Assembly (NCBI RefSeq): GCF_016722785.1
Contig: NZ_JAEQNE010000001.1
Location: 62,001-126,000 of the forward strand
DNA: 64,000 nucleotides
Direction: 5' to 3'
Origin: Ramlibacter monticola
GTDB taxonomy: Bacteria > Pseudomonadota > Gammaproteobacteria > Burkholderiales > Burkholderiaceae_C
The notes below the pieces were generated by a model. It saw only the letters and a list, made by a program, of their open reading frames with translations. It was not told the DNA's origin and ran no database searches. Shown one piece after another: positions 17,014-44,088 of the stretch. Both the position numbers and the translations under genes were made by a program. How positions within the stretch are numbered: position 1 is the stretch's first letter; the number at the start of each line of letters is the position of its first letter.

Positions 17014-17023
17014 GGCGGGAACC

Positions 17024-19642: not shown

Positions 19643-19656
19643 GCGTCGGCTGCCGG

Positions 19657-22600
19657 TCAGGCCACGGGCAGCGGCTCGGCGGCGACGCGCGCTTCGCCGG
19701 CGGGCTGCGCCCGCCGCACCTTGAACCAGGCCGCATACAGGGCCGGCACGAAGAAGATCGTCAGCAGCGTGGCGATCGTGAGTCCGCCCATGATGGCGAT
19801 CGCCATCGGGCCCCAGAACACGCTGCGCGTGAGCGGGACCATGGCCAGCACGGTGGCGGCGGCGGTCAGCACCACCGGACGCGTCCGGTGCACGGCGGCC
19901 TCGACGACGGCGGTCCAGGGGTCGGCCCCGTTGTCCATCTCGGTCTGCACCTGGTCGATCAGGATCACCGCGTTGCGCATGATCATCCCGCCCAGCGCGA
20001 TGATCCCCAGGATCGCGACGAAGCCGAGCGGAGCGCGCGTCATCAGCAGCGCCGCCACGACGCCGATGAGGCCCAGCGGCGCGGTGAGGAACACCATCCA
20101 CATGAGCGAGAAGCTTTGCAGCTGCAGCATGAGGATCAGCAGGATGGTCAGCACCATCACCGGGGCGACGGCGGCCAGCGCGGTGTTGGCCTTGTCGCTT
20201 TCCTCCACGGCGCCACCCACGTCGATGCGGTAGCCGGCCGGCAGCCTGGCCTCGATGTCCTTGAGCAGCGGCCGGATGGTCTGGGTGACGGACACGCCCT
20301 GCTCGCCGTCCTTCACGTCGGCACGCACGGTGATCGCCATGTCGCGGTTGCGCCGCCACAGCACGGGCTCTTCCAGCTCGTTCTTCACGCGGGCCACCTG
20401 CGACAGCGGCACCACGGTGCCCTGGCGGGTGAAGAGGTTCACGTCCTTCAGCGTGTCCAGGTCGAGGCGCTCCGAAGGCACGGCGCGCGCCACGATGTCG
20501 ATCAGGTTCTCGTGCTCGCGCAGCTGCGACAGCGGCGCGCCGGTCATCACCGTCTGCGCGACCAGCGAGACGTCGGCGGGCGTGAGCCCCAGGGCACGCG
20601 CCTTGTCCTGGTCGAGTTCCACCCGCAGCGTGCGCACCGGGTCGAACCAATCGAGCTGCATGTCGCGCACGGCGGGGCTGGACGCCACCAACTTTTCGAC
20701 TTCGCGGGCGATGGCGCGCACCTTCTGGGTGTCCGGTCCAACCACGCGGAACTGCACCGGGAAGCCCACGGGCGGCCCCATCTCCAGCCGGGTGACGCGC
20801 ACCCACGCCTGCGGGAACTCGCCGGGCATGGAAGCCATCAGGCGCGAGCGCACCCGCTCGCGCGCCTCCATGTCCTTGGTCATCACCACGAACTGGGCGT
20901 AGCCGGCGTTGGGCAGTTCCGGCGACAGCGCGAGGTAGAAGCGCGGGCCGCCGGCGCCGGTGTAGGCGGTGAAGAAGCGGATGTCCTCGTCCTTCTTCAG
21001 CACCGCTTCCATGTGCCTGACTTGCTCCTCGGTGGCCTTGAAGGAAGCACCTTCCTTCAGCCGCAGCTCCACGATGAGTTCCGGGCGCGAACTGTTGGGG
21101 AAGAACTGCTGCGGCACGAGACGCATGGCGTACAGGGCGACGGCCAGCGCGCCCACCGTCACGCCGATCACGAGCCAGCGGCGTTCCAGCGCCAGGTCGA
21201 TGCCGCGGCGCAGCTTCCGGTAGAAGGGCGTGCCGTAGGGGTCGCCGCCATGGTGGTGCTTGCCGAAATCCTTGGGCAGCAGCTTCACCGCGAGGTAGGG
21301 CGTGAAGATGCCCGACACGATCCACGAGAACAGCACCGCGACGCCGACGATCCAGAAGATGCCGCCGGCGTATTCGGCGGTGACGGACTTGGCGAAGCCG
21401 ATCGGCATGAAGCCGGCCACCGTGATCAGCGCGCCGGTCAGGCGCGGCATGGCGGTGGCGGAGTAGGAGTAGGCGGCGGCCTTCAGGCGGTCCCAGCCCT
21501 CTTCCATCTTCACCGCCATCATCTCGACCGAGATGATGGAGTCGTCCACCAGCAGGCCCAGCGCGATGATCAGCGAACCGAGCGAGACGCGCTCCAGGTT
21601 CCAGCCCATGGCGAGCATGACCACGGCGACGACACCCAGCACCAGCGGCACCGACAACGCCACGATGATGCCGGTGCGCAGGCCCAGGCTCACCAGGCTC
21701 ACGGCCAGCACGATCGCCAGCGCTTCCAGCAGGGAGCGCTCGAACTCCCACACCGAGTCCTTCACGGTGGTGGGCTGGTCGGCCACGCGTTCCAGCTCCA
21801 CGCCGTGCGGCAGTTCGGCCTGGACCTTCGCGACCGCCTGTTCGACGGCTTCACCGAGCTTGACGATGTTGCCGTCGTCGCTCATCGAGATGCCCAGCAT
21901 CAGCACCTGCTGGCCGTTGTGGCGCACCGTGAAGACCGGCGGGTCCTCGTAGCCGCGCGTGATGGTGGTGAAGTCGCCCAGCTTGATCTGGCGTCCGCCG
22001 GCCGAGACGGGCACGTTGCGGATGTCGTCCAGGTTCTTGAACTGGCCGCTCACACGCAGGAACACGCGGTCGCCGTGGGTGTCGACCAGGCCGCTGGCGA
22101 GCATGTCGTTCTGCGCGCGCAGGCTGTCGGCGATCTGCGCCGGCGTGATGCCCAGGGCCGCCAGCCGCTGGTGCGAGAACTCCACGTACACGCGCTGCTG
22201 CTGCTTGCCGAACAGGTCCACCTTCTTGACCATGGGCACCTTCAGCAGCCGGCGCTTGATGTCCTCGGCGATGTCGGCAAGCTCGGCGTGGACTATGCCG
22301 TCGCCCTTGACGGCGTACAGCAGGCCGTACACGTCCCCGAATTCGTCGTTGAAAATGGGGCCGATCACCCCATCGGGCAGTTCCAGCTTGATGTCGGAGA
22401 ACTTCTTGCGCGCCTGGTACCAGGCCTCGCGCTGGTCCTTCTTCGAGGTGCTGCCCTTGACGGTGATGGTCAGCCCGCCGTAGCCCTGGCGCGCATAGGT
22501 CACGACCTTCTCGAAGTGATCGAGCTGCTCGAACTTCTTCTCCAGGCGGTTGAGGACTTCGTCCTGGATCTGCTGCGCGGTCGCGCCGGGCCAGATCACG

Positions 22601-22752
22601 GTGGCCGTCATCGAGGGCACCGAGAAGTTCGGGTCCTCGAGCTGGCCGAGCTTGCCGAATCCCAGCACGCCCGCCACGGCGATGACGAGGATCAGGAACA
22701 GCACCACGGCACGGTGGCCGAGCGCCCATTCGGTGAGGTTGAAGGATTTCAT
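19657..22752 (-). CDS. RND efflux permease (HAE1/AcrB type)
   Basis: Inner-membrane proton-driven efflux permease of 1,031 residues, the usual length. It shows 12 hydrophobic segments, the TM4 proton-relay motif GLLVDDSIISVEMM, and two large periplasmic loops. ATGA at 22752 overlaps the membrane-fusion gene stop. With the fusion protein and outer-membrane factor upstream it forms a tripartite pump. The spectrum (drugs, lipids or solvents) cannot be read from sequence. Metal-type (CzcA) motifs were not evident. Confidence 0.9.
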   Translation of the reverse strand: MKSFNLTEWALGHRAVVLFLILVIAVAGVLGFGKLGQLEDPNFSVPSMTATVIWPGATAQQIQDEVLNRLEKKFEQLDHFEKVVTYARQGYGGLTITVKGSTSKKDQREAWYQARKKFSDIKLELPDGVIGPIFNDEFGDVYGLLYAVKGDGIVHAELADIAEDIKRRLLKVPMVKKVDLFGKQQQRVYVEFSHQRLAALGITPAQIADSLRAQNDMLASGLVDTHGDRVFLRVSGQFKNLDDIRNVPVSAGGRQIKLGDFTTITRGYEDPPVFTVRHNGQQVLMLGISMSDDGNIVKLGEAVEQAVAKVQAELPHGVELERVADQPTTVKDSVWEFERSLLEALAIVLAVSLVSLGLRTGIIVALSVPLVLGVVAVVMLAMGWNLERVSLGSLIIALGLLVDDSIISVEMMAVKMEEGWDRLKAAAYSYSATAMPRLTGALITVAGFMPIGFAKSVTAEYAGGIFWIVGVAVLFSWIVSGIFTPYLAVKLLPKDFGKHHHGGDPYGTPFYRKLRRGIDLALERRWLVIGVTVGALAVALYAMRLVPQQFFPNSSRPELIVELRLKEGASFKATEEQVRHMEAVLKKDEDIRFFTAYTGAGGPRFYLALSPELPNAGYAQFVVMTKDMEARERVRSRLMASMPGEFPQAWVRVTRLEMGPPVGFPVQFRVVGPDTQKVRAIAREVEKLVASSPAVRDMQLDWFDPVRTLRVELDQDKARALGLTPADVSLVAQTVMTGAPLSQLREHENLIDIVARAVPSERLDLDTLKDVNLFTRQGTVVPLSQVARVKNELEEPVLWRRNRDMAITVRADVKDGEQGVSVTQTIRPLLKDIEARLPAGYRIDVGGAVEESDKANTALAAVAPVMVLTILLILMLQLQSFSLMWMVFLTAPLGLIGVVAALLMTRAPLGFVAILGIIALGGMIMRNAVILIDQVQTEMDNGADPWTAVVEAAVHRTRPVVLTAAATVLAMVPLTRSVFWGPMAIAIMGGLTIATLLTIFFVPALYAAWFKVRRAQPAGEARVAAEPLPVA

Positions 22753-23867
22753 CGCGCGGCCTGGCTCACTTCGACGGCACGGTCCGCGCCGGACAGCGCG
22801 ACCTTCAGGCCGGGCGCCATCTTCTGCACGCCCGCGGTGACGACCAGCGTTCCGGCGGGCAGGCCGGAGAGCAGCACGTCGTCGTTGCGAAAGCCGTGGA
22901 CGGTGACGGGCACCATTTCCACGAGCGCGAAGGCGTCCGTGCCCGTGGCGCGGCGCACCGCCCACACCGCAGGCTTGCCGTTGTTCTGCGTGATGGCCGC
23001 CGCCGGGATGGCGGCCACCGTGGTCTGCGCAGTGGGACGTTCCGCAACCAGGGTCGCGGTCGCGCCCAGCGGCAGGCGTCGCGTCGAGACGGGTTTCAGG
23101 CGCGCGCGGAAGGTGCGGGTCTGCGGCACGGCCTCGGGCGACATCTCGCGCAGGACCACGTCGAAGCTTTCGCCCGGCGCGCTCGCGAGGGACGCCTTGA
23201 ACTTCCCCTTGGTGAAGTTCGCGAGGTGGTCCTCCGGCACGTCCACCACGATCTCGGGCTCCCCCTCGGCGGCGATGGAGACGATGGGCAGCCCTTCGGC
23301 GACCACCTGCCCGACCTCGAACTTGACCGCGGTGACGACGCCGCTGCGCGGGGCGCGCAGCACCGTGTAATTCAAGCGGTTGCGGGCCAGCTCCAGGTTG
23401 CGCGCCTGCGCTTGCGCCGTCGCTTCGGCCGTCCTGGCGCCGCTGTGCGCCTTTTCATCGTCGGAGTCGCTGACGGAACCGTCGGCCTTCAGGGCATTGA
23501 GCCGCTGGCGGTCCGATTCGGCCTGGCGCGCCTGCGTGGTGGCGGCGGTGAGCTGCTGCTGCGCCGCTTCCACCGCAAGCCGGTAGTCGGCGTCGTCGAG
23601 CACGGCGAGCACGTCGCCCTCGCGGACGGTCTGCCCGACATCGACCTTGCGTTGCACGACCTTGCCGCCCACGCGGAAGGCTTGGTCCACTTCGTGCCGT
23701 GCGCGCACGGTACCGACGTAGCGGTTCGCCTCGCGCGCGGCGTCGTAGCGGATTTCGGCGGTGCGCACCGGCCGCGGGGCCTCGGCGGTGGGCTTGTTCG
23801 GGGTGCAGGCGGCAAGCAGCGCCGCCAGGGGGACGGCGAGCAGGGCCGCGGCGTGTGAGGTATTCAA
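22749..23867 (-). CDS. RND periplasmic adaptor (membrane fusion lipoprotein)
   Basis: A 372-residue periplasmic adaptor with a TTG start at 23867, chosen because GAGGAG lies five bases before it and because the lipobox (LLAAC, C21) then follows directly. The biotinyl-lipoyl halves (VGGKVVQRKVDVGQTV and LRAPRSGVVTAVKFEVGQVV), a coiled-coil hairpin between them and the barrel region are in the expected order. It links the RND permease to the outer-membrane factor. Confidence 0.88.
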   Translation of the reverse strand: MNTSHAAALLAVPLAALLAACTPNKPTAEAPRPVRTAEIRYDAAREANRYVGTVRARHEVDQAFRVGGKVVQRKVDVGQTVREGDVLAVLDDADYRLAVEAAQQQLTAATTQARQAESDRQRLNALKADGSVSDSDDEKAHSGARTAEATAQAQARNLELARNRLNYTVLRAPRSGVVTAVKFEVGQVVAEGLPIVSIAAEGEPEIVVDVPEDHLANFTKGKFKASLASAPGESFDVVLREMSPEAVPQTRTFRARLKPVSTRRLPLGATATLVAERPTAQTTVAAIPAAAITQNNGKPAVWAVRRATGTDAFALVEMVPVTVHGFRNDDVLLSGLPAGTLVVTAGVQKMAPGLKVALSGADRAVEVSQAAR

Positions 23868-23895
23868 GACAGCTCCTCGTGGCGATCGATGGGGT

Positions 23896-25347
23896 TCAGG
23901 AATGGGTGGAAGGTGGGGTGCCGGTCGCGGCGGGCTGCGGCTCGAAGGCCTGCCAGCCGCCGCCCAGCGCCTTGTAGAGGCGCACGCTGTCGAGCAGCAG
24001 TTGCGTGTCGCTGTCGTTGGCGCCGAGCCGCACCGCCAGGCGCGTGCGCTGCGCATCGAGCAGCGGCAACAGGTCGATCTGCCCGCGGTCGTACAGCGAC
24101 TGCGCGCGCCCCAGGGCCGAATCGGCGGAGTTGGCGGCGTTGCGCAGGTCGACGGCGCGGCGGCGTTCGTCGCCGAGCGCGACCAGCGCGTTCTCCACAT
24201 CCTCCAGGGCACGCACGATGCCGTCCTCGTAGCGCATCACGGCTTCGGACTGCGCGCTTTCGGCGATCTCGTTGATGCTGCGGGTGCGACCCGCGTTGAA
24301 GAGCGGCATCGCCAGCAGGCCCGCGACATTGCGGAAGTGCGCCGCGCCGACGTCGATGTTGTTCAATTCCAGGCTCTCGCGGCCGAACACGGCGCCAAGG
24401 AACAGGCGCGGGAACCACTCGGCCTGGGCCTGCTGCCGGCGGGCGTTGGCGGCGTCCAGCTGCGACTTGAGCGCGAGCAGGTCCGGACGGCGTTCCAGCA
24501 GGGTGGCGGGCTGGCCCGGCCGCGCCGGCGGCACGGTGAGCTCGCCGCCGTGGGTCGCGATGCCGGCCGCGTTCACGGCCTGGTCGCCCACCAGCACCGC
24601 GATGCGATGACGCGAGACGGCCACGACCGTCTCGAGCGGCGGGATCGCGGCGCGTGCGCGCGAAGCCTCCGTGGCGGCCCGCTCGACGTCGAACGGGGTG
24701 GCGAGGCCGGCCCGCTGGCGCGCTGTCACCAGGCGCAGGGTTTCGTCCTGCGCGGCAGAGATCGCGCGCACCGTCTCGAGTTGGCGCAGGGCGCCCACGA
24801 GGGTGAAGTAGTTGGTGGCGACGTCACTTACGACCAGCAGCCGCACGCCGCTCGCGCCGTGCTCCGCCGCCAGGGCGTCGGCGGCCGCGGCGGCGGCGCC
24901 CGCACGGAGGCGCCCGGAGAGGTCGATCTCCCAGGAGACGTCGAGGCCCGCGCTGCCCCGCTGGATGTCGGGCATGTGCTGCTTCACCGCGGCGTCGTGG
25001 CCCGTCTTGGCGTCCTGCCCGCTGGCGCTCAGCCCGATGCTGGGGAACAGCACGGAACGGCTGATCGTCTCTCCCGCACGGGCCGCGCGCACGCGCTGGA
25101 CGGCCATGCGGATGTCCCGGTTCTCGCGCGCGGCGCGGCGCACCAGGTCGGAGAGCACGGGGTCGCCGTAGCTTTCCCACCAGGCGACCTCGGGCGCGTC
25201 CTGGGCCTCCGCCGGCGCGGCGAAGCGGACCGGCACGTCGACCGAAGAGTGGAGGTTGGGAGTGGCGCAGCCGGCCAGCCCCAGCGCGACCGCGATCGCG
25301 AGGGTGGCGGCCAGCGGCGTGGCGGCAGGGCGTGGATGATTCGGCAT
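23896..25347 (-). CDS. Outer-membrane efflux lipoprotein (NodT/TolC family)
   Basis: A 483-residue outer-membrane factor with lipobox LAGC (C27). It carries family landmarks WWESYGDPVLSDLVRRA, SWEIDLSGRLR and LLERRPDLLALKSQL. It is the first gene of the seven-gene run that continues through MFP, RND, MgtC, AI-2E, MlaA and the small lipoprotein. The shared 42-bp promoter element lies 57 bp upstream. Confidence 0.9.
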   Translation of the reverse strand: MPNHPRPAATPLAATLAIAVALGLAGCATPNLHSSVDVPVRFAAPAEAQDAPEVAWWESYGDPVLSDLVRRAARENRDIRMAVQRVRAARAGETISRSVLFPSIGLSASGQDAKTGHDAAVKQHMPDIQRGSAGLDVSWEIDLSGRLRAGAAAAAADALAAEHGASGVRLLVVSDVATNYFTLVGALRQLETVRAISAAQDETLRLVTARQRAGLATPFDVERAATEASRARAAIPPLETVVAVSRHRIAVLVGDQAVNAAGIATHGGELTVPPARPGQPATLLERRPDLLALKSQLDAANARRQQAQAEWFPRLFLGAVFGRESLELNNIDVGAAHFRNVAGLLAMPLFNAGRTRSINEIAESAQSEAVMRYEDGIVRALEDVENALVALGDERRRAVDLRNAANSADSALGRAQSLYDRGQIDLLPLLDAQRTRLAVRLGANDSDTQLLLDSVRLYKALGGGWQAFEPQPAATGTPPSTHS

Positions 25348-25381
25348 GGTCCCGGTCGTGAGAGGAAGTCGATGGGGAGAG

Positions 25382-25445
25382 CGTAAGAAGCGGCGGGCGC
25401 GGAGTCGTCAGTGAAGCGTCGTCGTTCGGTCGTACTTCGGTCGCC
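25382..25445 (-). promoter_or_regulatory. Shared regulon promoter, copy 1 (efflux/MlaA operon)
   Basis: The 42-bp element occupies 25404-25445. The minus-strand -35 CTGACG is at 25406-25411 and the -10 CTTACG at 25382-25387, 18 bp apart. GTC triplets recur every 11 bp across the element. Predicted transcription start near 25375 gives a leader of about 28 bases to the outer-membrane factor gene. Confidence 0.7.
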
Positions 25446-25466
25446 TGCGGGGCGCAGGCGCCGCGC

Positions 25467-25916
25467 TCAGACTCGCGCGTGGAGGGCCTTCAGCTCGGCG
25501 CGGCAGGCCTCGCCGAAGGCCTTCAGGGGATCGGCATCGACGGAGCGCGCGATGCGGCCCATCTCCTCCAGCGTCACGTTGCTGGCGAAGTACTGCTCCG
25601 TGATGCGCATCAGGAGCCGCTCCGCCTCGGCGAGCACGGGGGCGGAGGCGGCGAGCCGGATGCGGTTGAGGAGCGCGTAGGCGGGCAGCAGGGTCTCGGG
25701 GTGTTCCAGCGTGTGCGTCAGCGCGTCCATCAGGAGCCGGCCGCATTCGCCGATGAACTCGCCGTACAGCGTCTCGCGCTTGCGGACATCCAGCCGGATC
25801 ATTTCGCGCCGGCTGTGCGTCTTCTGGGTGATCCATGCCGTGGCGATGGTGGCGCCGCCGCCGGCGAGCGAGCCCACGACGCCCGCCATGGCGCCGACGA
25901 CGCTGATCTCGGTCAC
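25467..25916 (-). CDS. Membrane-anchored protein of unknown function
   Basis: A 149-residue protein with one N-terminal hydrophobic segment (VVGAMAGVVGSLAGGGATIATAWI) followed by a basic, helical cytoplasmic part (RREMIRLDVRKRETLYGEFIGEC). It is the last gene of the DUF3141 operon, ten bases after the preceding gene and only about 20 bases before the next promoter element. No family is recognised. Confidence 0.65.
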   Translation of the reverse strand: MTEISVVGAMAGVVGSLAGGGATIATAWITQKTHSRREMIRLDVRKRETLYGEFIGECGRLLMDALTHTLEHPETLLPAYALLNRIRLAASAPVLAEAERLLMRITEQYFASNVTLEEMGRIARSVDADPLKAFGEACRAELKALHARV

Positions 25917-25926
25917 GGTGCGGCGC

Positions 25927-26262
25927 TCACGCCGGGGGCCAGTCCGCCGCCAGGTCGGGGAAGGACTTGCGCAGGCGCTCGACCACGACCATCTCGATCG
26001 CGGCAGTCTGGCGCTGGCCCAGTTGATCGGCCGACTTCTCGCGCACGGCGAAGTGCAGCATCAGGAGGTCGTGCAGCTTCACGAACGCCCGGGAATTCTT
26101 CGTGCCGCAGACGGAGTCATCGCCGTGCAGCACGCGTTCCACCACGCCGCGCTGCAACAGCGGCACGCGGCAGAGCTGCGCCAGGCGCGCGACTTCCCGG
26201 TCGATGTCCTCGAGGTTGCTCGCGAACCGCCCCACGCGGTAGCCATCCTGCTGCATGGTCAT
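25927..26262 (-). CDS. Hypothetical protein in the DUF3141 operon
   Basis: A 111-residue soluble protein, mostly helical, with no signal peptide or recognised motif. Its ATG at 26262 overlaps the stop of the 70-residue gene by four bases (ATGA), supporting translation as part of the operon. Segments such as LAQLCRVPLLQRGVVERVL and LHDLLMLHFAVREK suggest a small regulator or granule-associated protein, but nothing proves it. Confidence 0.6.
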   Translation of the reverse strand: MTMQQDGYRVGRFASNLEDIDREVARLAQLCRVPLLQRGVVERVLHGDDSVCGTKNSRAFVKLHDLLMLHFAVREKSADQLGQRQTAAIEMVVVERLRKSFPDLAADWPPA

Positions 26263-26471
26263 GGCTCGCCTCCCGAGGGCGGATCGCCCGGACCGGCCGC
26301 GAGGTCGCGCGCGATCGAATCGAGCAGTTCGCGCCCGGAGGCGAACTCGCGCTGCTGGCCGGTGACCAGGTTCTCCAGGCGGCCAGCCAGCGCGTCCGGC
26401 TGCGCATCGTTGCGCACCTTGATCACGTAGGACCGCCGGTTCGGGTACTTCGATTCCGGTTGGAAGGGCAT
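26259..26471 (-). CDS. Small conserved-looking protein (70 residues)
   Basis: A short soluble protein with the core RSYVIKVRNDAQPDALAGRL followed by ENLVTGQQREFASGRELL. Many bacteria have short proteins with this YVI(K/R)VR...GRxE...SGxxxxF...EL pattern, with no known function. I took the ATG at 26471 because GGGAG lies seven bases upstream. An in-frame ATG at 26495 would add eight residues and would overlap the stop of the acetate kinase remnant as ATGA, so it may be the older start. Confidence 0.6.
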   Translation of the reverse strand: MPFQPESKYPNRRSYVIKVRNDAQPDALAGRLENLVTGQQREFASGRELLDSIARDLAAGPGDPPSGGEP

Positions 26472-26491
26472 GGTCGGTCTCCCGGGATGAC

Positions 26492-26585
26492 TCATGGAAT
26501 GCACTGCGCGTCTTCGCGGATCAAGGTCAGCGCGTGGGATGCCGCGACCCATTCCTCGTTGGTCGGCTCGACGACTGCGGAACCC
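26492..26585 (-). pseudogene. Remnant of acetate kinase C-terminus
   Basis: In the frame one base off from MaoC, the minus strand reads AVVEPTNEEWVAASHALTLI and ends at TGA 26492-26494. This matches the C-terminal tail of acetate/propionate kinases (VxPTNEEWxxAxHALxL). Nothing else of the kinase is present. DUF3141 operons often carry a fused MaoC/phosphate acetyltransferase gene followed by acetate kinase, so this looks like the far end of a deletion. Confidence 0.6.
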
Positions 26586-27108
26586 GCACCAGGTCGTCGC
26601 CCTCCGCCACGGAGATCCGCAGCTGCGGCAGGGTGCCGCGCGGGCGCTCGAAGCGCAGGGTCGGCGCGCTCACGCTCGCTTCGCCGGAGATCACCGTCTG
26701 GCCCTCCTGGTTGACGCAGGTGCAGGCCAGGACCACGGAGTGCTTGGTCTCGTCGCGCGCGATCACGGTCACGGTGATCGTCAGTGTGTCGCCCACGCGG
26801 ATCGGCGCGCGGAACTTCAGCGTCTGCGCGAGGTAGACGGTGCCGGGCCCGGGCAGCTGCGTACCCAGCACGGCGGAAATCAGCGCCGCGCCCCACATCC
26901 CGTGGGCGATCACGCCCTGCGCGGGCGTGGACGCGGCGAATTCGGGGTCGAGATGCTGCGGATTGATGTCGCCCGAGATCGCTGCGAACAACTGGATGTC
27001 GGCGGCGGTGAGCGTACGCTGGAGGCTGGCGTGGTCGCCCACGGCAATCTCGTCGAAGGTGCGGTTGCGCAGCACTTCGAGCGGGTTGGATGGTGAAGTC
27101 GTTGTCAT
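26527..27108 (-). CDS. MaoC-like (R)-enoyl-CoA hydratase domain, C-terminally truncated
   Basis: A 193-residue hot-dog-fold hydratase with the hydratase-2 motif SGDINPQHLD (catalytic D47 and H52) and IAHGMWGAALISAVLGT. It closely follows the N-terminal half of bifunctional enoyl-CoA hydratase/phosphate acetyltransferase proteins, but the acetyltransferase half is absent. After about residue 170 the frame runs into unrelated residues (PQSSSRPTRNGSRHPTR) that are an out-of-frame reading of an acetate kinase tail. The hydratase domain itself looks intact and could supply (R)-3-hydroxyacyl-CoA to the adjacent PHA-synthase-like protein. Confidence 0.75.
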   Translation of the reverse strand: MTTTSPSNPLEVLRNRTFDEIAVGDHASLQRTLTAADIQLFAAISGDINPQHLDPEFAASTPAQGVIAHGMWGAALISAVLGTQLPGPGTVYLAQTLKFRAPIRVGDTLTITVTVIARDETKHSVVLACTCVNQEGQTVISGEASVSAPTLRFERPRGTLPQLRISVAEGDDLVRVPQSSSRPTRNGSRHPTR

Positions 27109-27117
27109 GTCGTGGTT

Positions 27118-29406
27118 CTATGCAGGAATGTGGCGCGGAGCCGGCGCGCCCAGCAGCGCGCGGATGCGGGCAAGCGTGGCCACCTGCTGTGCCGACGGCC
27201 GGATGCGCTGGACGCGGCGGTCCGCCAGCACGCGATCCAGCAGCGTCAGCAGCCGCTCGCGGTCTTTCTTGCGCGCCAGCAGCGCGGGCAGGGTCTCGAT
27301 CGCCTGGTCGGGCGCGTAGCGGGCAATGATTTCCTGCTCGCCGCCGATGCGGCGCGCCTCGTCCCGCGGCAGCGCGGGCAGCAGTTCGCGATACTCCTCG
27401 AGCAGGTCGTGCGCAAGCTCGACGCGTGACAGCGGCAGGGGTGCGTCGTCGTGCCCCAGCAGGAAGGCGACGCGCGCGAGGGCCTCCGCATACCCGCCGC
27501 TCCCGACGGCGGCGAGGGCCTGCTTCACCGCCGGGAAGCCGCGCGGATCCACCGCCGGCGCTTCCTCGCCGCACGCGTCGTCGGGATGGAGGTAGGCGAA
27601 CAGGTTGCCGTACAACTGGAAGAAGGCCGCTTCGGAGGCTGCGTCACGCAGCGCGCGGTAGCCGTCCAGTCCCGCGCCGGCCAGTTCGGACACGGTCGCC
27701 TCCAGCCGTCGGGCCGGATGCTCCGGCGTGAGAGACTGGCGCTGCGCCTTGACGGCCTGTGCCGCCGGCGCCAGCCACCAGGTCCAGGGGTTCAGGTCCG
27801 ACAGGGCCCAGCGCTGGAAGCGCAGCGGGTGGAAGGCCCGCGAGAGCGCGGCCGCCGGCTCGCTGACCAGCGCCTTCACCACCGGACGTGCGAACAGCTC
27901 GTAGGCGCGCTGGTTGAACTCCGACACGACCTGCAAGGCCTCGAAGGGCTTCTCGTCCTCGCGCTGGAAGCGGTTCAGCTTCGGAACAATGTCCTCCAGC
28001 CGCAGTTCGAGGAAGCGCACGTCGTGCGAAGGCTTGCCGTCGGCGCCCGCCTGCTCCGAGATCTCCATCCCGTAAAGGCCCGGCGGCAGCGCCTCGATGG
28101 ATTTCAGCACCGAGACGATCTGCGCGTGCTCCTTCTTCGCGACCTTGCCGGATACGAAGATGCCCAGGTGGCCGATGTCCTCGTGCATCAGGCCGACGAT
28201 GACCTGCCCCGTGGCCTTGACCTCCTCCGTGCTGCCGTACACGTCGGCTACCCAGTTGAAGGCCTGCTGCGGCGGCGTGATGTTGTCGCCCAGCGAAGCG
28301 AACAGCACGATGGGCGACTTGATCGCCCGCAGGTCGAAGCGGGAGTCCTTCCACAGCCGGTTGCCCACGAACAGGGTCTGCGTGATCCACTCGATCTCCT
28401 CCCCGTTCAGGAGGAAGTAACCGCCCCACCAGCGCTCGAACTCGAGGAAGCGCGCCGCCTCGGTGTCCACGTTCGCGAACAGCTGCAAGTACTTGTTCCA
28501 GAAGGTGTTGGCCGGGTTGAGGTTCTCGAAGTTCTGCACCAGCCAGGCGCCGTCGAACTTGCCGTTGCCCAGGTCCGAGGTCAGCGACGACAGCCACGTA
28601 CCTCCCAGCAGTCCGCCCGCGTAGCGCATCGGGTTGTCGCCGATGTCGTCGCTCCAGGCGCCGGCCCAGTAGGACATCGGCGCGCCCACGACCACGACGG
28701 GGCCCGTGTCGTCGGGACTGGAGGCGGCCAGCATCATGGCCGACCAGCCGCCCTGGCAGTTCCCGACGATGGCGGGCTTGGGCGCATCGGGATGAAGCTC
28801 GCGCACGCGGCGCACGAACTCGCGCTCCGCGTTGCACACGTCCAGCAGCGTCTGCCCCGGCTGCGGATCGCGGAAGAACACGACGAAGTACACCGGATGG
28901 CCTTCGCGCAAGGCCACGCCCACCTGCGAATCGTCCTTGAAGCCGCCGATGCCCGGCCCGTGGCCGCCGCGCGGGTCGATGATCACGTAGGGGCGGCGCT
29001 TCGCGTCCACCTGCATGCCTGCCGGCGGGAGAATGTGAAGCAGCGCGTAGTTGACGGGCCGCTCGAACCCGCGGCCGTCCATGACCGTTTCGTGCTCGAA
29101 GTGCAGCACGGGGGGCAGTCCCTGCCGCTCGTGCTCGATGAAGTTGTTGCCGCGCTGGCGCAGCGCGTCCCAGAACAGCACCGAGCGCTGCGCGAAGTCC
29201 ACGGCGTACTGCGCGCCGCTCGCCCAGGCCTGCCAGGGAAGCAGCGGTCCCGCCGCGGCTCCGTCCGCCTGGCGCTCGCAAGCCGCTTGCACGCGTTCCT
29301 GCAGGTGCTGGAGCGCCAGCTTCGTGCGGTTCTGCAGAACCTGCGCCACCCTGGAGTGGACCGCAGTGCCGGCGCCCACGACGGCGATCGTTGATGTGTG
29401 TTCCAT
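27118..29406 (-). CDS. DUF3141 protein, PHA-synthase-like alpha/beta hydrolase
   Basis: A 762-residue cytoplasmic protein. The alpha/beta-hydrolase core has the PHA-synthase-type nucleophile box GNCQGGW with the nucleophile C217, preceded by the strand PYVIIDPRGGHGPGIGGF. MHEDIGHLGIFVSG near residue 410 carries the expected histidine. The last 300 residues are helical and family-specific. DUF3141 proteins are annotated as 3-hydroxyalkanoate synthetase-like; activity is unproven. It leads an operon with MaoC and three small genes. The shared promoter element lies so close that the leader would be only a few bases. Confidence 0.8.
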   Translation of the reverse strand: MEHTSTIAVVGAGTAVHSRVAQVLQNRTKLALQHLQERVQAACERQADGAAAGPLLPWQAWASGAQYAVDFAQRSVLFWDALRQRGNNFIEHERQGLPPVLHFEHETVMDGRGFERPVNYALLHILPPAGMQVDAKRRPYVIIDPRGGHGPGIGGFKDDSQVGVALREGHPVYFVVFFRDPQPGQTLLDVCNAEREFVRRVRELHPDAPKPAIVGNCQGGWSAMMLAASSPDDTGPVVVVGAPMSYWAGAWSDDIGDNPMRYAGGLLGGTWLSSLTSDLGNGKFDGAWLVQNFENLNPANTFWNKYLQLFANVDTEAARFLEFERWWGGYFLLNGEEIEWITQTLFVGNRLWKDSRFDLRAIKSPIVLFASLGDNITPPQQAFNWVADVYGSTEEVKATGQVIVGLMHEDIGHLGIFVSGKVAKKEHAQIVSVLKSIEALPPGLYGMEISEQAGADGKPSHDVRFLELRLEDIVPKLNRFQREDEKPFEALQVVSEFNQRAYELFARPVVKALVSEPAAALSRAFHPLRFQRWALSDLNPWTWWLAPAAQAVKAQRQSLTPEHPARRLEATVSELAGAGLDGYRALRDAASEAAFFQLYGNLFAYLHPDDACGEEAPAVDPRGFPAVKQALAAVGSGGYAEALARVAFLLGHDDAPLPLSRVELAHDLLEEYRELLPALPRDEARRIGGEQEIIARYAPDQAIETLPALLARKKDRERLLTLLDRVLADRRVQRIRPSAQQVATLARIRALLGAPAPRHIPA

Positions 29407-29415
29407 GCAGCGAAC

Positions 29416-29479
29416 GTTATTCGCCGCTGCAAGTCACGTCGTCAGCGATGCGTCGCGGTTCGGTCGGGATCGGGTAAGC
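29416..29479 (-). promoter_or_regulatory. Shared regulon promoter, copy 2 (DUF3141 operon)
   Basis: Element at 29438-29479, -35 CTGACG at 29440-29445 and -10 AATAAC at 29416-29421, 18 bp apart. It fills the 84-bp gap between the regulator stop (29491) and the DUF3141 start (29406). The predicted start of transcription is within a few bases of the ATG, so the message may be nearly leaderless. Confidence 0.7.
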
Positions 29480-29490
29480 GCAAGCTGCGC

Positions 29491-32379
29491 TTACGCCAGC
29501 AGCGCACGCGCCCTCGCGGCGGGCGGCGTCTCGGCAGCTTCCGGCAGGGCCTCCAGCAGTGCCGCGAGCGCCTTCCGCTCGGCGGGCTTCGCCTCACCGT
29601 GCTCGCACAGCGCGACCAGCGCCACCAGCTCGTGCCACGGCGCCTCCTGGGCCCGTGCCTCCTGCAGCGCACTGCGGACCGAGGCTTCGGCGGCCGCCGC
29701 CTGCCCGCGCGCCCGCGCGATGGCCGCCTGCGTCAGCAGCAGTTGCGCCAGGTACACGCGCTCCCCGTGCGTCTCCACGAAGCGCAAGGCCTCGCGCAGC
29801 TGGCCCTCGGCCGCGTCGGCTTCGCCGGCGAGCAGGAGCGCCTCCGCGGCGTAACCCAGGACTTCGCTGCCTCCGGCGCGCATGCCGCTGGCCGTATTGC
29901 GTTCGTAGGCCTCGCGGATCACGCGGTAGCCGTCCAATGCTTCGCCGCGGCGGGCCTGGGCCCACCCGCGGAAGAACCCGGCCGCGGCGCGTCCCTGGCC
30001 GAGTCCGAACTCCTCCACCAGGGCCTGCAATTCGTCTGCGAGCCTGGCCACGCTCTCCCCGTTGCCGAGCCGCACCTCCAGCAGGGCGTCGAACCACAGA
30101 ACGACCATCTGCGCCATGGGCTGGCGCAATTGCTGCGCCCGCGCGTGCGCCTGGCGCAGCAGCGCGCGCGCCTGCCGCGGCATGCCGAGGTGAAGCAGCT
30201 GCACGGCGAGCTGCGCCAGCAGCATCACCTGCGGCGCGGCGACGAAGCCCAGGTCCGGAACGGTGTCGGCGGCATCCAGGGCGGGCAGCGCCCGCTCGAT
30301 CGCTGCGCGGGCGCGCCGGGGACGGCCCTGCATCATGTGCACCTCGCCCTCCACCGTGCAGGCGGTCAGCAGCAGGACGGGATCCTGCGTCGTCGCCGAC
30401 AAAGCCACGGCGCGCTGCGTGACCTCGAGCGCTTCGGCATATTCACCGCGGATGGAGAGCAGGAAGCCGAGGCCGTGCAGCAACTGCCCGCGCGCGGGAT
30501 GCTGCGGCACGCGATCGAGCAGCAGGTAGGCCCGCCGCAGCGCGTCCTTCGCCTCGCTCCCCACGCCGTGCGCCTGGAAGGCGGCGACGCCGCGCAGGGT
30601 CGAAAGAGTGATGTCCAGCGAGTCGCGCTCCGCCACGTCGGTCGCCTGGTCCAGGAGGAGCAGCGCGCGCCCGGTGAGCTCCATGCATTCCACCGGGCTC
30701 AGTTGCATCAGCGCGGCCTCGGCGGCCTGGGCGTAGTAGCGCAGGGCGGCGGCGGGATCGCGGCCCCGGTCGAAGTGCATCGCAAGCTCCGCTGCCGGCA
30801 ACGCGCGGCCTCTGGCGCGTTCCGCTTCCAGCGCGGCGCCGACCTTGCGGTGCACCTGCGCACGCGCCGTCGCCGGCGTGCGCTCGTAGAGGATCTCGCG
30901 GAAGAACGCGTGCCGGAACGCGTAGGGCGGCTCGGGGGCGACGTCCTCCCCTCCCCGCCTAGGCGCCGTCACCCACATGTGCCCGCGCGCGAGACGCTCG
31001 CAGGCTTCGGCCACCCACCCCGCGTCCCGTTCCAGTGCCTGCGCCACCGTCTCGGCCCGGAATTCGGAGCCGCAGACCGCCGCCGTGGCGAGCATGGCGC
31101 GCTCCTCGACGTCCAGCCGCGCGAGGAAGTGATCGATGATGCCGGCCAGGTTCTCGGGCACCGGCAGCTTCGCGAGCGCGTCGCCCGGCAGCGCGCCACC
31201 GCCCTGGGCCGCGCGCGCGATCACGTCGACCAGGACCGAAGCCACGAACAGCGGCACGCCGTCGGTACGCTCGTGCAGCGCGTGCACGAAGCCTTCGTCG
31301 GCGGCGAACCCCTGCGCCTGTCCGGCGACGTAGTCCGCGATTTCGGTTTCGGAGAAGGGATCGAGCACGATCTCCTCGCACAGGCGCTGCAGCCGCAGCT
31401 CGTGCCGCACGCGGTTGAGCGGATGGTCGCCGGCGACCACTTCGGCCAGGCGGAAACTGGCCAGCCACATGATGCGCGCGCCGCCGCGCCGCCGCGCGAG
31501 GTAGTCGAGGAGGTGGATCGTCGAACGATCGCTCCAGTGGAGGTCCTCGATGACGAGCAGCAGCGGCCGGCGCTCGGCGTAGCGATCGAGCAGCTCGCCC
31601 ATCTCGCGCAACATGCGTTCCGGGCCGACGCCGGCCAGCTCGCGGCGCAACGCCTCGCGCTCCTCGGCGGAGCTGAGCCACGGCAATTGCAGCAGCCAGG
31701 TGGGAGCGACCGCGCGCAGCAGCGCGGGCAGCGCGCTGTCCCGGCGACACAGGTCCGCCAGCGCCTCCAGCACCGGGAGATAAGGCTCGCCGGTCCCGTA
31801 GTGCTCCACGCACTGGCCGCGGGCGCAGGCGATGTCGCCCAGGCCCGAGGCGAAGCGGTCGATCAGCGTCGTCTTGCCGATGCCCGGTTCGCCGGCCACC
31901 CAGACCAGCCTGCGCTGGCCGTCCGCGGCCGCCTGCCAGGCCCGCTCCAGGCGGGCGAGCGCGTCGGCACGGCCGATGAAGAAGGACGCGTCCTGCGCCG
32001 GGCCTTGTGCCTGCGCGGGCGGCGGCGAGCGCGGCGCGAACGCGCTCGGGTTCGCGATGAACCGGTACCCACGCCGGGGCACGGTCTCGATCAAGCGCGG
32101 CTGGCGCGGATCGTCGCCGAGCGCCATGCGCAGGTCGCTCACCGCCGTCTTCAGGACGGACTCGCTCACGAACTGGTGGCCCCAGACCTCGTCGAGCAAT
32201 GCATCCTTGGTGAGCAGAGTGCCCGGTTGCCGCGCGAGCGCGCACAGGAGCGCGAAAGGTGTCGGGGCGAGCGCGAGCGGCTTGCCGTCGCGCAGCAGCG
32301 ACGCGTTGGCCTCGTCGAGTTCGAACTCGACGAAACGCACGCGGACCGGGTTCGAGACGGCACTCTGGGGGCGTGCCAA
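29491..32379 (-). CDS. Large regulator: OmpR-type winged helix + ATPase + helical repeats
   Basis: A 962-residue cytoplasmic regulator. The N-terminus (about 15-110) is an OmpR/PhoB-type winged helix (LLTKDALLDEVWG, VLKTAVSDLRMALGDDP, ETVPRRGYRF). A STAND-like ATPase module follows (about 130-450), with Walker A GEPGIGKTTL and Walker B LLLVIEDLHWSD. The remainder is helical, TPR-like. There is no membrane segment. I chose the TTG at 32379 because GGAG lies eight bases ahead; a GTG at 32445 is in frame. Such proteins couple ligand sensing and ATP turnover to transcription. It lies amid four promoters bearing 11-bp direct repeats, the spacing OmpR-type domains prefer. Confidence 0.85.
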   Translation of the reverse strand: MARPQSAVSNPVRVRFVEFELDEANASLLRDGKPLALAPTPFALLCALARQPGTLLTKDALLDEVWGHQFVSESVLKTAVSDLRMALGDDPRQPRLIETVPRRGYRFIANPSAFAPRSPPPAQAQGPAQDASFFIGRADALARLERAWQAAADGQRRLVWVAGEPGIGKTTLIDRFASGLGDIACARGQCVEHYGTGEPYLPVLEALADLCRRDSALPALLRAVAPTWLLQLPWLSSAEEREALRRELAGVGPERMLREMGELLDRYAERRPLLLVIEDLHWSDRSTIHLLDYLARRRGGARIMWLASFRLAEVVAGDHPLNRVRHELRLQRLCEEIVLDPFSETEIADYVAGQAQGFAADEGFVHALHERTDGVPLFVASVLVDVIARAAQGGGALPGDALAKLPVPENLAGIIDHFLARLDVEERAMLATAAVCGSEFRAETVAQALERDAGWVAEACERLARGHMWVTAPRRGGEDVAPEPPYAFRHAFFREILYERTPATARAQVHRKVGAALEAERARGRALPAAELAMHFDRGRDPAAALRYYAQAAEAALMQLSPVECMELTGRALLLLDQATDVAERDSLDITLSTLRGVAAFQAHGVGSEAKDALRRAYLLLDRVPQHPARGQLLHGLGFLLSIRGEYAEALEVTQRAVALSATTQDPVLLLTACTVEGEVHMMQGRPRRARAAIERALPALDAADTVPDLGFVAAPQVMLLAQLAVQLLHLGMPRQARALLRQAHARAQQLRQPMAQMVVLWFDALLEVRLGNGESVARLADELQALVEEFGLGQGRAAAGFFRGWAQARRGEALDGYRVIREAYERNTASGMRAGGSEVLGYAAEALLLAGEADAAEGQLREALRFVETHGERVYLAQLLLTQAAIARARGQAAAAEASVRSALQEARAQEAPWHELVALVALCEHGEAKPAERKALAALLEALPEAAETPPAARARALLA

Positions 32380-32585
32380 GGCGTGATCTCCTCGCAATCC
32401 GTTGGGTGGCTTCCGGCGATCCCGGGCGACGGATCCATTCTGCACCCGCGCAGGACCGCGTGCCGACAGGAAATCCGGAAGGCGCGACGCGTGTCACGGC
32501 CGCCGCAGGTAGCACGGCCGCAGGAAGTTCTCGCCGGGGTTCGGCTCGCGGGCCCCGCAGTTGGAAGAGTGCTCCCCGCGCAGGA

Positions 32586-32942
32586 TCATTGGGGCCGGGC
32601 GGCCTGGCCGGCGAGCTGCGAACCGGTGTCGCGCACGCGGTGCTGCGCGAGGTACGAGGACCCGCTGTCTTCCGCCGTCATGGCGCGCACTTCGTCGCGC
32701 GCTGCGAGGTATTCCTGCTCCACCTGCGCGTGGGTCTTCGCCGAGCGGAAGGTCTTCAGCGGGTTGTAGGAGGCGGACCAGGGGTTCACGCCGGCCTGCT
32801 TGTACTGGGCGAGCTCCGCCTGCACCTCGGCCTGGGTTCGCGAGGACACGAAGGGGTGCGGGTCGATGGTGATGTCGTCGGCGAAGGCGCTGACGGCTGC
32901 GGTGGCGAGAATGAGGGTGCCGAAGAAGGCGATGCGGTTCAT
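32586..32942 (-). CDS. DUF4148-family exported protein
   Basis: A 118-residue periplasmic protein with a signal peptide (MNRIAFFGTLILATAAVSAFA) and the DUF4148 motif SSRTQAEVQAELAQYKQAG. This family is common in Burkholderiales and has no known function. AAAGGA stands six bases before the ATG. It is driven by copy 3 of the shared promoter element and is the gene directly upstream of the regulator (about 200 bp), so some readthrough into the regulator is possible. Confidence 0.82.
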   Translation of the reverse strand: MNRIAFFGTLILATAAVSAFADDITIDPHPFVSSRTQAEVQAELAQYKQAGVNPWSASYNPLKTFRSAKTHAQVEQEYLAARDEVRAMTAEDSGSSYLAQHRVRDTGSQLAGQAARPQ

Positions 32943-32980
32943 AGTGTTCCTTTCACAGTCCGTTGTCTGGACGAAGAGAG

Positions 32981-33044
32981 GTTAGGTCCGCGGCGCTCGC
33001 GCGTCGTCAGGGATCGGTCGCCGTTCGGTCGCACTTGGGTGAGG
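32981..33044 (-). promoter_or_regulatory. Shared regulon promoter, copy 3 (DUF4148 gene)
   Basis: Element at 33003-33044, -35 CTGACG at 33005-33010 and -10 CCTAAC at 32981-32986, 18 bp apart. Predicted start of transcription is near 32974 with a leader of about 32 bases. The element overlaps the last codons of the patatin gene, so part of that protein's C-terminus (CDRTATDP) is operator sequence read as codons. Confidence 0.7.
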
Positions 33045-34437
33045 CGCAGTCGTCCACCGCCCCGGACCCGAGGCTCGCTCGCAGGCGCTGGAATTCGGGC
33101 GAATCCCGCAGTGCCGTGCGGCCCGCCGCCTGCAGCTCGTTCACCTGCACCGGGAGGATCTGGAAGGCCGTGGGCACGCGCAGCAGGTCCGCGTCGCGCA
33201 GGCTGCGCAGGCTCACGGTGATCACATGCAGTTCCGCGTCGGCGGCGAAGGGGCTGCCGGGGCGGCCGCGTGCGGCGTGGAGTTGCTCGCGCAGGCGGCG
33301 CGCCTGGTCATCCACCATGGCGGTCGTTTCCTCGGCGAAGCGCGAGCCCGCCCCGAACACCAGCGCGTCCAGTACCTGCACCATGCCCGGGACACGGTCC
33401 GTGCGGTCGATGCGTTCGCCCGCGTCGCGCTCGGAGTTCACGCTCACCAGCACGATCTGGTGCACGGAGCCCTCCGGCCGCGTGCCGAAGCTCTTGTCCA
33501 GTGATCCGCCCGCCATGGTGTGGTCCACGAGCCCGCGCACGCCCAGGTTGTCGGCCAGGCCGCCGTCGACGAGGTGCAGGTACGGACGTTCCCCGGCATC
33601 GCGGTAGCTCTCCGCGATCCGCTGCAGCAGGCGCGCCGAGAGGTTGCGGTCGGCAGGCGCCGGATCTGCGGCAGGCGCCGCGAAGGGGCAGGTCCCCGCG
33701 TAATTGCGCAAGGTGACCGGGCTCAGGAGCATGGGCACCGCCGACGATGCCGCGACCGCCACGGAAAGCGGCACCCTGTCCAGGTCCGAGCAGATCACCG
33801 CGAACTGCTGCGGGGTGAATTCGAAAGGTGCACCGGTGGTGAGGTCGGTGGCCGTGACCAGCAGGCGCGTCAGCGGACGCCGGGCCCGCAGCTCGCCGAA
33901 GGTGATGCCGCGAAACAAGGCGTCGAAGCGCAGTGCCAGCGTGTCGCTGCGGCCCCACCACGGCGAAGTGAGGTGGTACAGCGTTGCCGGGGAGAGGATA
34001 TCGCGCACCAGGCTGGTCTGGAAATCCACCAGCAGGAAGTCGCGCCCGAAGCGCGTGAAGACTTCGTCGCCGAACGCCGCGTAATAGGCGGCGAGAACGC
34101 TTCCGCCGGACACGCCGCTGATCAGGTTCACTTCGTCCAGCAGCGTCGTCGCCCGGCCTTGCAGCTCGAAGCGGGTGGCCTTGAGTTCCTCCAGCACGCC
34201 GAGGCCGAAGGCCGCGGCGCGCGCGCCTCCGCCCGAGAGGGTGACGGCGGCGATGATGGCGTGATCCGGCGCCGACGACGCCACTTCCGGCAGGGGCCGT
34301 GTGATCCCCGCGGCCCACTGCGCCTCCCCGGTGAGCGGCGGGTTGACCCATGGGCGGGCCGTGGAGCAGGCCGTCAGGGCGAGCGCCGTGGCACAGGCCC
34401 AGAGGGCATGCAACGCCGATCGGAGCTGCGCGTGCAT
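33007..34437 (-). CDS. Patatin-like phospholipase lipoprotein
   Basis: A 476-residue lipoprotein (lipobox LTAC, C24) with a patatin domain: oxyanion loop LSGGGARAAAFGLG, nucleophile box GVSGGS and the catalytic Asp in LVDGGLADN. It is predicted to be a lipid acyl hydrolase anchored in the envelope. It follows a small exported protein gene by 30 bases and shares its promoter (copy 4). Its 3' end overlaps the promoter element of the next unit. Confidence 0.85.
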   Translation of the reverse strand: MHAQLRSALHALWACATALALTACSTARPWVNPPLTGEAQWAAGITRPLPEVASSAPDHAIIAAVTLSGGGARAAAFGLGVLEELKATRFELQGRATTLLDEVNLISGVSGGSVLAAYYAAFGDEVFTRFGRDFLLVDFQTSLVRDILSPATLYHLTSPWWGRSDTLALRFDALFRGITFGELRARRPLTRLLVTATDLTTGAPFEFTPQQFAVICSDLDRVPLSVAVAASSAVPMLLSPVTLRNYAGTCPFAAPAADPAPADRNLSARLLQRIAESYRDAGERPYLHLVDGGLADNLGVRGLVDHTMAGGSLDKSFGTRPEGSVHQIVLVSVNSERDAGERIDRTDRVPGMVQVLDALVFGAGSRFAEETTAMVDDQARRLREQLHAARGRPGSPFAADAELHVITVSLRSLRDADLLRVPTAFQILPVQVNELQAAGRTALRDSPEFQRLRASLGSGAVDDCASPKCDRTATDP

Positions 34438-34467
34438 CCGGCTACAGCCCGGGCCGAGGCCTGCCGC

Positions 34468-34803
34468 TCAGCGCCCGTTGTCCGCTTCCGGCACGCGGCC
34501 GGTGCCGCTGCGGACGACCTCCGTGCCGGCAGCCTTGCGGCCCGCACGCGCCGCCAGTTTCTCCTGCGTGCCCGCAGCCTGGCGCTTGCCTGCGGAGACC
34601 GGCTGGTCCGCCACCCGGCCCTCGTCGTTCTTCCCCATTTCCCGGCCGAGGGTGTGCCTCCTCTCGCGTGCGGCCTGCCGCTCGGCCCTGGTGGCGGGCT
34701 CCGAGGGCGCGGCCCGGTCCTCGCCGGGCAAGTCCTGCTGCGCGTACGCAGAGAACGCCAGCAAGGCGGCCAGTCCGCAGAGGGCGGGGGTGAGCTTGGT
34801 CAT
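34468..34803 (-). CDS. Small exported, highly charged protein
   Basis: A 111-residue protein with a signal peptide (MTKLTPALCGLAALLAFSAYA) and a mature part rich in Arg, Glu and Ala (AERQAARERRHTLGREMGKN), probably disordered or helical. GGAGGA stands upstream of the ATG. First gene of the patatin unit under promoter copy 4. No family is recognised. Confidence 0.65.
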   Translation of the reverse strand: MTKLTPALCGLAALLAFSAYAQQDLPGEDRAAPSEPATRAERQAARERRHTLGREMGKNDEGRVADQPVSAGKRQAAGTQEKLAARAGRKAAGTEVVRSGTGRVPEADNGR

Positions 34804-34886
34804 GATGCGATCCTCCGAATCGGATGTTGTCGCGGGCCCGGAGGCCCGATGGATCCGGCAGGGTGCGCCGGGTCCACGCGGCAGAA

Positions 34887-34950
34887 GTTAAGGCCTGGCG
34901 CCGGGCGCGTCGTCAGCGAAGCGTCGCGGAGCGGTCGGAGTTCGGTCAGG
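34887..34950 (-). promoter_or_regulatory. Shared regulon promoter, copy 4 (patatin unit)
   Basis: Element at 34909-34950, -35 CTGACG at 34911-34916 and -10 CTTAAC at 34887-34892, 18 bp apart. Predicted start of transcription is near 34880, giving a leader of about 77 bases. It marks the right-hand end of the regulon region. Confidence 0.7.
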
Positions 34951-37463: not shown

Positions 37464-37482
37464 CGGATCTCCCAACGCTGCC

Positions 37483-44088
<6,606 letters not shown>

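Follow-up and report, generated by a model that had tools for sequence, protein, structure and literature searches.

Regulators of the OmpR/PhoB type bind direct repeats as tandem dimers, and PhoP requires 7-base-pair (bp) motifs with a 4-bp spacer, three or four motifs being bound more tightly (PMC4832192). AfsR combines an OmpR-type winged helix with a STAND ATPase and TPR repeats; its afs box consists of two 11-bp repeats overlapping the -35, and at SARP promoters the 3' repeat lies 8 bp from the -10 (PMC10936776). In this work, a 64,000-nucleotide stretch of the Ramlibacter monticola genome (contig NZ_JAEQNE010000001.1, positions 62,001 to 126,000; hereafter the window) was analyzed for an element of 11-bp repeats that precedes several units of a gene cluster including the regulator gene 29491-32379. 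All element copies, promoter boxes and cluster genes given below for the window lie on the minus strand. An earlier note made from this DNA (the original prediction) knew of no described regulon with such a layout. This was too strong, as the layout is the usual one for OmpR/PhoB-type proteins and resembles SARP/AfsR promoters (PMC4832192, PMC10936776). Because 11-bp direct repeats are typical of OmpR/PhoB-type proteins, it is not new in kind.

The locus shares with AfsR and the large SARPs of Streptomyces the order winged helix-STAND-TPR, 11-bp repeats over a poor -35, and a suboptimal -10 (PMC10936776). It differs in that the Pfam scan gave no BTAD domain for the regulator, up to four units occur rather than two, and the setting is Proteobacteria with efflux, envelope and polyester genes instead of antibiotic clusters. 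PhoB with its pho box and PhoP of M. tuberculosis share the DNA-binding domain family and tandem 7+4-bp direct repeats (PMC4832192). Unlike them, the regulator here has no detected receiver domain: neither Response_reg nor BTAD was among the nine families listed for it at E ≤ 0.01. The element also carries GACCGAA rather than the pho-box motif. Membership in the Pho or SARP groups was therefore rejected, since receiver and BTAD were not found and the spacing from repeat to -10 differs; with its last repeat 17 bp from the -10, the regulator is AfsR-like in outline and yet no SARP.

MalT and other STAND activators share an NTPase with a TPR sensor fold, and a STAND-TPR protein and MalT domain III were among the fold matches. 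However, the regulator here has an N-terminal OmpR-type winged helix, whereas the DNA-binding domain of MalT is a C-terminal LuxR-type helix-turn-helix. CadC, HilA and ToxR likewise have an N-terminal OmpR-type winged helix and no receiver, and in sequence comparison CadC scored highest among solved chains. Both CadC and ToxR sit in the membrane, whereas here a STAND ATPase follows the winged helix.

The element is best read as the cognate operator-promoter of the cluster-encoded regulator, which would act as a STAND activator of the units described below. We put the probability of this reading at roughly 85%.

Copies of the element and promoter geometry

The element was scored over the whole genome (6,137,276 bases) with a degenerate 29-bp pattern built from four copies. 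Without mismatches, the pattern occurred four times, always inside this cluster, and the reversed control pattern had no such match; the copies are therefore not a product of chance. When three mismatches were allowed, two further matches appeared, one of them at window position 16244. The original prediction had correctly placed four 42-bp copies at 25404-25445, 29438-29479, 33003-33044 and 34909-34950. They align without gaps with 25 of 42 columns invariant, compared to a mean of 1.3 and a maximum of 8 for four random 42-bp window segments (20,000 draws). GTC triplets had been reported at columns 4, 15, 26 and 37; the first three are present in all four copies, but the last in only two, since column 37 begins GTA in copy 2 and GTG in copy 3.

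To the promoter boxes the comparison across genomes gave another register. The strings read earlier as the -35 (CTGACG) and, 18 bp further on, as the -10 (CTTACG, AATAAC, CCTAAC or CTTAAC) are present, but they sit 3 and 2 bp upstream of the boxes as placed by this comparison. That register was replaced by a -10 of the form TAnnnT, a -35 position reading ACGACT or ACGACG, and a 17-bp spacer.

In a curated set of 57 sites, TAnnnT stood at 17 bp in 45 and at 18 bp in 2. This set was retained from 80 matches of an iterated matrix after 11-bp-shifted copies and weak isolated matches had been dropped. Because the downstream bases were already visible when the sites were picked, the test was repeated with an unselected 40-bp matrix made from the four window cores alone, at a threshold of 14, on 45 further loci that contain regulator relatives or sites or lie next to them. 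The matrix gave 51 matches, versus 2 for its reversed form. TAnnnT followed the core at exactly 17 bp in 33 of the 51 matches and at 18 bp in 2, while the remaining offsets between 5 and 33 contributed 2 in sum. Since the window-core matrix carried no information on that region, the fixed TAnnnT is an independent promoter sign.

The anatomy was then described over 63 sites, that is, the 57 curated sites minus two from locus L018 plus eight new ones; omitted were two sites of L175 that nearly duplicate those of L173, one shifted match in L173 and a weak L152 site at 6592. The conserved positions fall mainly into four 11-bp units and the -10. The first unit, nACCnAA, is weak; it is followed by GACCGAA, GACGnTT and GACGACT, and the A of GAC is invariant (63/63) in units 2, 3 and 4. 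No fifth repeat was seen upstream of the four units, where the information fell to background. The element has the direct-repeat spacing of SARP-type sites (11 or 22 bp apart), and these 11-bp repeats are genomically linked to the regulator gene. Against the sigma70 -35 consensus TTGACA, ACGACT agrees in GAC, and its first two bases remain AC as in the repeat. Placed at the -35 position with GAC kept, the last unit appears to have two functions, as one of the repeats and as a poor -35.

Two conserved blocks at a fixed distance might also be the promoter of an alternative sigma factor, for example of the extracytoplasmic function type, with no operator at all. We consider this very improbable, as the upstream block extends over 40 bp in units of 11 bp, far beyond a -35, and the -10 fits the key sigma70 positions T, A and T. 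The closeness of several copies could suggest a functionless repeat spread by duplication of upstream DNA. Such an origin is hardly credible, because the 17-bp spacer and the flanks are hardly conserved and yet the same columns are conserved across genera.

The window copies were also scored with model R1, trained on 45 of the 57 curated sites; five window sites, two L018 sites that repeat those of L017, and five doubtful sites were left out, so that no window site was included. All four copies were recovered. Copy 1 (25403..25442; 44.3 bits) consists of four 11-bp units and precedes the NodT-MFP-RND efflux operon; its last unit overlaps the -35 (25403-25408), and its -10 is TACGCT (25380..25385). 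Copy 2 (29437..29476; 38.7 bits; -35 at 29437-29442; -10 TAACGT at 29414..29419) precedes the DUF3141, MaoC and small-protein genes. Copy 3 (33002..33041; 41.1 bits; -10 TAACCT at 32979..32984) precedes the DUF4148 gene and then the regulator gene, and copy 4 (34908..34947; 41.7 bits; -10 TAACTT at 34885..34890) the genes of a small secreted-looking protein and a patatin-like protein.

A plain genome-wide repeat, which the original prediction had named as an outcome that would refute it, was rejected, as the strong copies are restricted to the cluster in this 6.1-Mb genome. Model R1 gave nine matches in it at E ≤ 1, six of them among the matches listed, and in these nothing outside the cluster exceeded 15 bits. 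The four promoters of the original prediction therefore stand, and a possible fifth, weaker promoter was added at 16219-16282. This copy (16243..16282; -10 TATCGT at 16220-16225) falls within the MlaA frame, at its 3' end, and is followed by a lipoprotein-like gene of 50 residues (16040..16192). Model R1 matched it at 16219-16273 with 21.5 bits. Since a relative with no regulator match (G035) reached 21.4 bits, the fifth copy depends more on its place in the cluster than on its score and is the least certain of the copies. The copies at 33002 and 16243 each overlap the reading frame that precedes them, at its 3' end.

The distance from the -10 to the next ATG was not evenly distributed. An ATG began exactly 7 nucleotides after the -10 at 10 of the 63 sites, compared to a mean of 1.5 per position, and 5-8 nucleotides after it at 19; two of the ten cases are near copies of others (L017, L173). 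Likely gene starts at this distance are those of DUF3141 in the window (29404-29419) and in L133 (near 14000), of NodT in L017 and L173, and of h71, a conserved 70-residue protein, in L139 and L140; in L138, the h71 start lies at 6 nucleotides. Other ATGs open a short frame only, for example in L017 at 6410. Some of the targets may thus have leaderless mRNAs.

Co-occurrence of the element with the regulator gene

Of 131 related loci found with the regulator as query, 80, all in named genomes, were retained, and loci L015-L049 were scanned for sites. The loci of 52-64% identity include those of Variovorax and Aeromonas isolates and of a strain named Pseudomonas, as well as metagenome bins assigned the names Accumulibacter, Thauera, Rhodanobacter and Hydrocarboniphaga. 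Beside regulator homologues, the element recurs in Beta- and Gammaproteobacteria.

When 147 relatives were scanned with model R1 under stricter filters, sites of at least 29 bits were found in nine genomes among the matches listed (G000, G003, G013, G014, G016, G017, G021, G033 and G117). Below these, the highest scores were the 21.5 bits of the fifth window copy and the 21.4 bits of G035. Eight of them belong to the ten genomes that hold the regulator at E ≤ 1e-60; in the ninth, G014, the regulator is present in pieces within 12 kb of its sites. The other two of the ten, G103 and G113, have partial regulator matches of 35-39% identity and no strong site. The G014 regulator gene (L152, 3708-6522) is broken into pieces in different frames, by assembly error or decay.

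A pattern made from the window alone, and hence independent of the R1 training, found G000, G003, G021 and G117 with up to two mismatches; single two-mismatch matches in G006 and on another G021 contig look like chance. With up to three mismatches, 24 of the 147 genomes matched, and the reversed control matched in many too. In a class sample of 369 genomes, a site at E ≤ 1e-4 was present only in G000 (0 of the 368 others), which shows specificity only, as none of the 368 has a close regulator; five of them hold regulator relatives of 31-41% identity and no site. When each of the 24 loci with the 57 curated sites was left out in turn, its sites scored 15.3-45.9, and no other position of that locus exceeded 15.6. 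Furthermore, 14 of 16 named genomes scanned whole, most of which had supplied training sites, matched at E ≤ 0.01, the genome of L025 at just 19.2 bits.

Four new contigs outside the training were followed. The L174 site stands beside a regulator paralogue of 47% identity, h71 and NodT, and the L176 site beside a paralogue of 40%. In L173 (20 kb), pump, h71, h111, h149 and patatin genes accompany the sites, and in L175 there are patatin and AI-2E matches. The element thus points to further regulon members, as these contigs showed.

The scan of the genome and its relatives showed that the sites track the regulator, the strong sites of the R. monticola genome being confined to the cluster. Because this promoter signal follows the regulator gene across bacteria, the element is very probably the landing site of the regulator. 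The core of the original prediction, a regulon element at promoters paired with the gene 29491-32379, is strongly supported by conservation, the fixed -10 spacing and co-occurrence.

Another OmpR-type protein could read the element, such as a response regulator served by the product of the hybrid kinase gene 35388-37514, which adjoins the cluster in a genome with 141 receiver-domain matches. Nevertheless, strong sites among the 147 relatives occurred only where the STAND regulator was present, among the matches listed, and the new sites in L174 and L176 lie beside STAND paralogues. The mapped kinase had no match in 24 other loci, and only L175 has kinase matches, of 26-34% identity. We therefore regard a different reader as quite unlikely.

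The pump alone was likewise disfavored as the partner of the site, since many genomes that lack strong sites have pumps of 35-59% identity.

Several observations weigh against the pairing of element and regulator or reduce its independent support. Pumps of at least 78% identity were found, among the matches listed, only in G000, G003, G014, G021 and G117, all of which have sites, so that pump and regulator are not fully separated as the conserved partner. Seven of the nine site-bearing relatives had supplied training sites (G000 and G014 had not), and independent positives are limited to the window, G014, G527 and the new contigs. No regulator match was found in the 20 kb of L173, whose genome carries a regulator elsewhere (L041); L041 itself contains regulator pieces and no site in its 22.8 kb, the four sites of that genome being on another contig. 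L175 has just a 93-residue regulator match of 35% identity, and the regulator of its genome lies elsewhere (L017). Two weak new matches of about 19 bits appeared in G515 and G520. Whole-genome scans at E ≤ 0.01 gave no site for the genomes of L028 and L029 (regulators of 33-39% identity), and G103, G113, G220, G282, G320, G355 and G360 hold regulator relatives of 31-41% identity with no strong site. In addition, the 3' repeat lies 17 bp from the -10, further upstream than the 8 bp given for SARP promoters in PMC10936776. Since L138-L141, with regulators of 39-42% identity, each have a site, relatives with and without sites occur at similar identity, and the pairing holds for a subclade.

The two sites of L017 (bin named Accumulibacter) and those of L018 (bin named Thauera) do not differ in cores, downstream bases or spacing, which suggests a shared or misbinned contig. 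Plasmid carriage was represented by one distant record among 72,556 plasmid records.

The STAND regulator and its proposed action

By its domain matches, the regulator (29491..32379) combines a winged helix of the OmpR type with a STAND ATPase and TPR repeats in one protein. In the Pfam scan, Trans_reg_C (PF00486) scored 71 bits against a cut-off of 26.2 and AAA_16 scored 85.1 bits; the TPR-like repeats scored below the Pfam cut-offs. The protein thus has the parts of a STAND protein, an AAA_16/NACHT-type NTPase with Walker A and a repeat sensor. Among solved chains, the sequence of the winged helix was closest to the DNA-binding domain of CadC, with MtrA and PhoP next. In an alignment of 15 homologues, the recognition-helix region VWGHxxVxxSVL, followed by S and then R, was strongly conserved, and the Walker A region GEPGIGKTT was largely invariant. 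The predicted structure had a mean pLDDT (predicted local distance difference test) of 81.5 and a pTM (predicted template modeling score) of 0.60. Its best fold match was a STAND-TPR protein, and MalT domain III ranked 15, with modest TM-scores (template modeling scores).

The best-supported role is that of a class II-like activator of the RND pump, h71, envelope-lipid and acyl-CoA/polyester genes, for which we infer DNA binding, positive control, an ATP switch and a signal. The sequence data themselves establish the element, its constant geometry, its conservation and its occurrence together with the regulator gene. By analogy, the signal together with ATP would release the regulator from autoinhibition. 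Its winged helices would then align head to tail on the units nACCnAA, GACCGAA, GACGnTT and GACGACT, one unit per monomer. The last unit would form the degenerate -35 ACGACT, in which only GAC fits TTGACA, 17 bp before the TAnnnT -10, and the bound regulator would recruit sigma70 RNA polymerase to a promoter of low intrinsic strength. The RND pump, h71, the envelope-lipid genes (MlaA, patatin), MgtC, AI-2E and the acyl-CoA/polyester genes (DUF3141, MaoC) would be co-induced; in relatives, the acyl-CoA/polyester targets would be PhaC or a MaoC-phosphotransacetylase.

Repeats overlapping the -35 position would also suit a repressor that covers the -35 and blocks the polymerase until a signal arrives. 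Repression is unlikely, as the -35 is degenerate (ACGACT) and the repeats extend upstream and not into the start site, which is the expectation for an activator. Moreover, AfsR and MalT, among the nearest characterized STAND regulators, are activators (PMC10936776).

Tentatively, the regulator may represent a family of STAND activators in Beta- and Gammaproteobacteria that is triggered by a ligand and has so far gone undescribed. Members of such a family would oligomerize and align their winged helices on a four-unit operator whose last unit also acts as the -35, and would couple efflux, envelope-lipid and polyester/acyl-CoA genes, often through leaderless mRNAs and with h71 as a possible partner or feedback component. 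Literature searches, for which subscription literature lay largely out of reach, found no paper on this regulator or its operator among those listed, and novelty is thereby only weakly indicated. RND pumps are generally regarded as being under the control of TetR-, MarR- or two-component regulators; in this cluster, one seems to be controlled, along with envelope-lipid and polyester genes, by a STAND ATPase. A regulator for which no assigned function was found thereby gains a precise candidate operator and a set of targets seen again in several genera. The geometry, with repeats ending on the -35 at 17 bp from the -10, is unlike that of AfsR and may offer a second system for STAND oligomers engaging RNA polymerase.

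Genes of the cluster and recurrent neighbors

Behind copy 2 lie the DUF3141 gene (27118..29406), which has weak similarity to class III polyhydroxyalkanoate synthase below the cut-off of that family, the MaoC-type enoyl-CoA hydratase gene (26527..27108), h71 (26259..26471), and two other conserved small cluster proteins, h111 (25927..26262) and h149 (25467..25916). Copy 1 is followed by the NodT-type outer-membrane efflux subunit (23896..25347), the RND periplasmic adaptor (22749..24212) and the RND permease of the ACR_tran family (19657..22965), the last two given as open frames whose true starts are not fixed. Further on are an MgtC-domain stretch (18902..19588, part of frame 18902-21751, the true start of the gene not being fixed), an AI-2E family permease (17024..18895) and the MlaA lipoprotein (16204..17172). 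The DUF4148 gene (32586..32942) follows copy 3. Behind copy 4 are the small secreted-looking protein with no Pfam family (34468..34803) and the patatin-like protein (33007..34437).

The gene content was mapped in 25 loci including the window. Pump genes (NodT, MFP or RND) were present in 20 of the 25, one of which, L135, continues L134, and h71 homologues in 17, beside the regulator or sites; both frequently stand immediately behind a site. Patatin, MgtC, MlaA, DUF3141, MaoC and DUF4148 recurred in part. In relatives, sites also preceded a polyhydroxybutyrate synthase (L173, L136) and a MaoC-phosphotransacetylase fusion (L020).

The h71 protein of the window had no Pfam or NCBIfam family, and among 17 members there was one chance-like match. 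No solved-structure match was found at E of 0.001 or below. The structure predicted for h71 (mean pLDDT 77.2) contains three strands and one helix. Given its recurrence, h71 is a possible partner of the regulator.

The order site (copy 3 in the window), DUF4148, regulator was the same in the window and in L134, and in L021 a site and h71 precede the regulator gene. Because the regulator gene comes after DUF4148 behind copy 3, it may be co-transcribed with DUF4148 from that copy and thus be autoregulated.

In L024 (8227-9414), a site beside a regulator relative of 39% identity precedes a protein with RTX-type calcium-binding repeats in Pfam. The frame after the L176 site (near 6473) resembles this RTX-type frame by its appearance.

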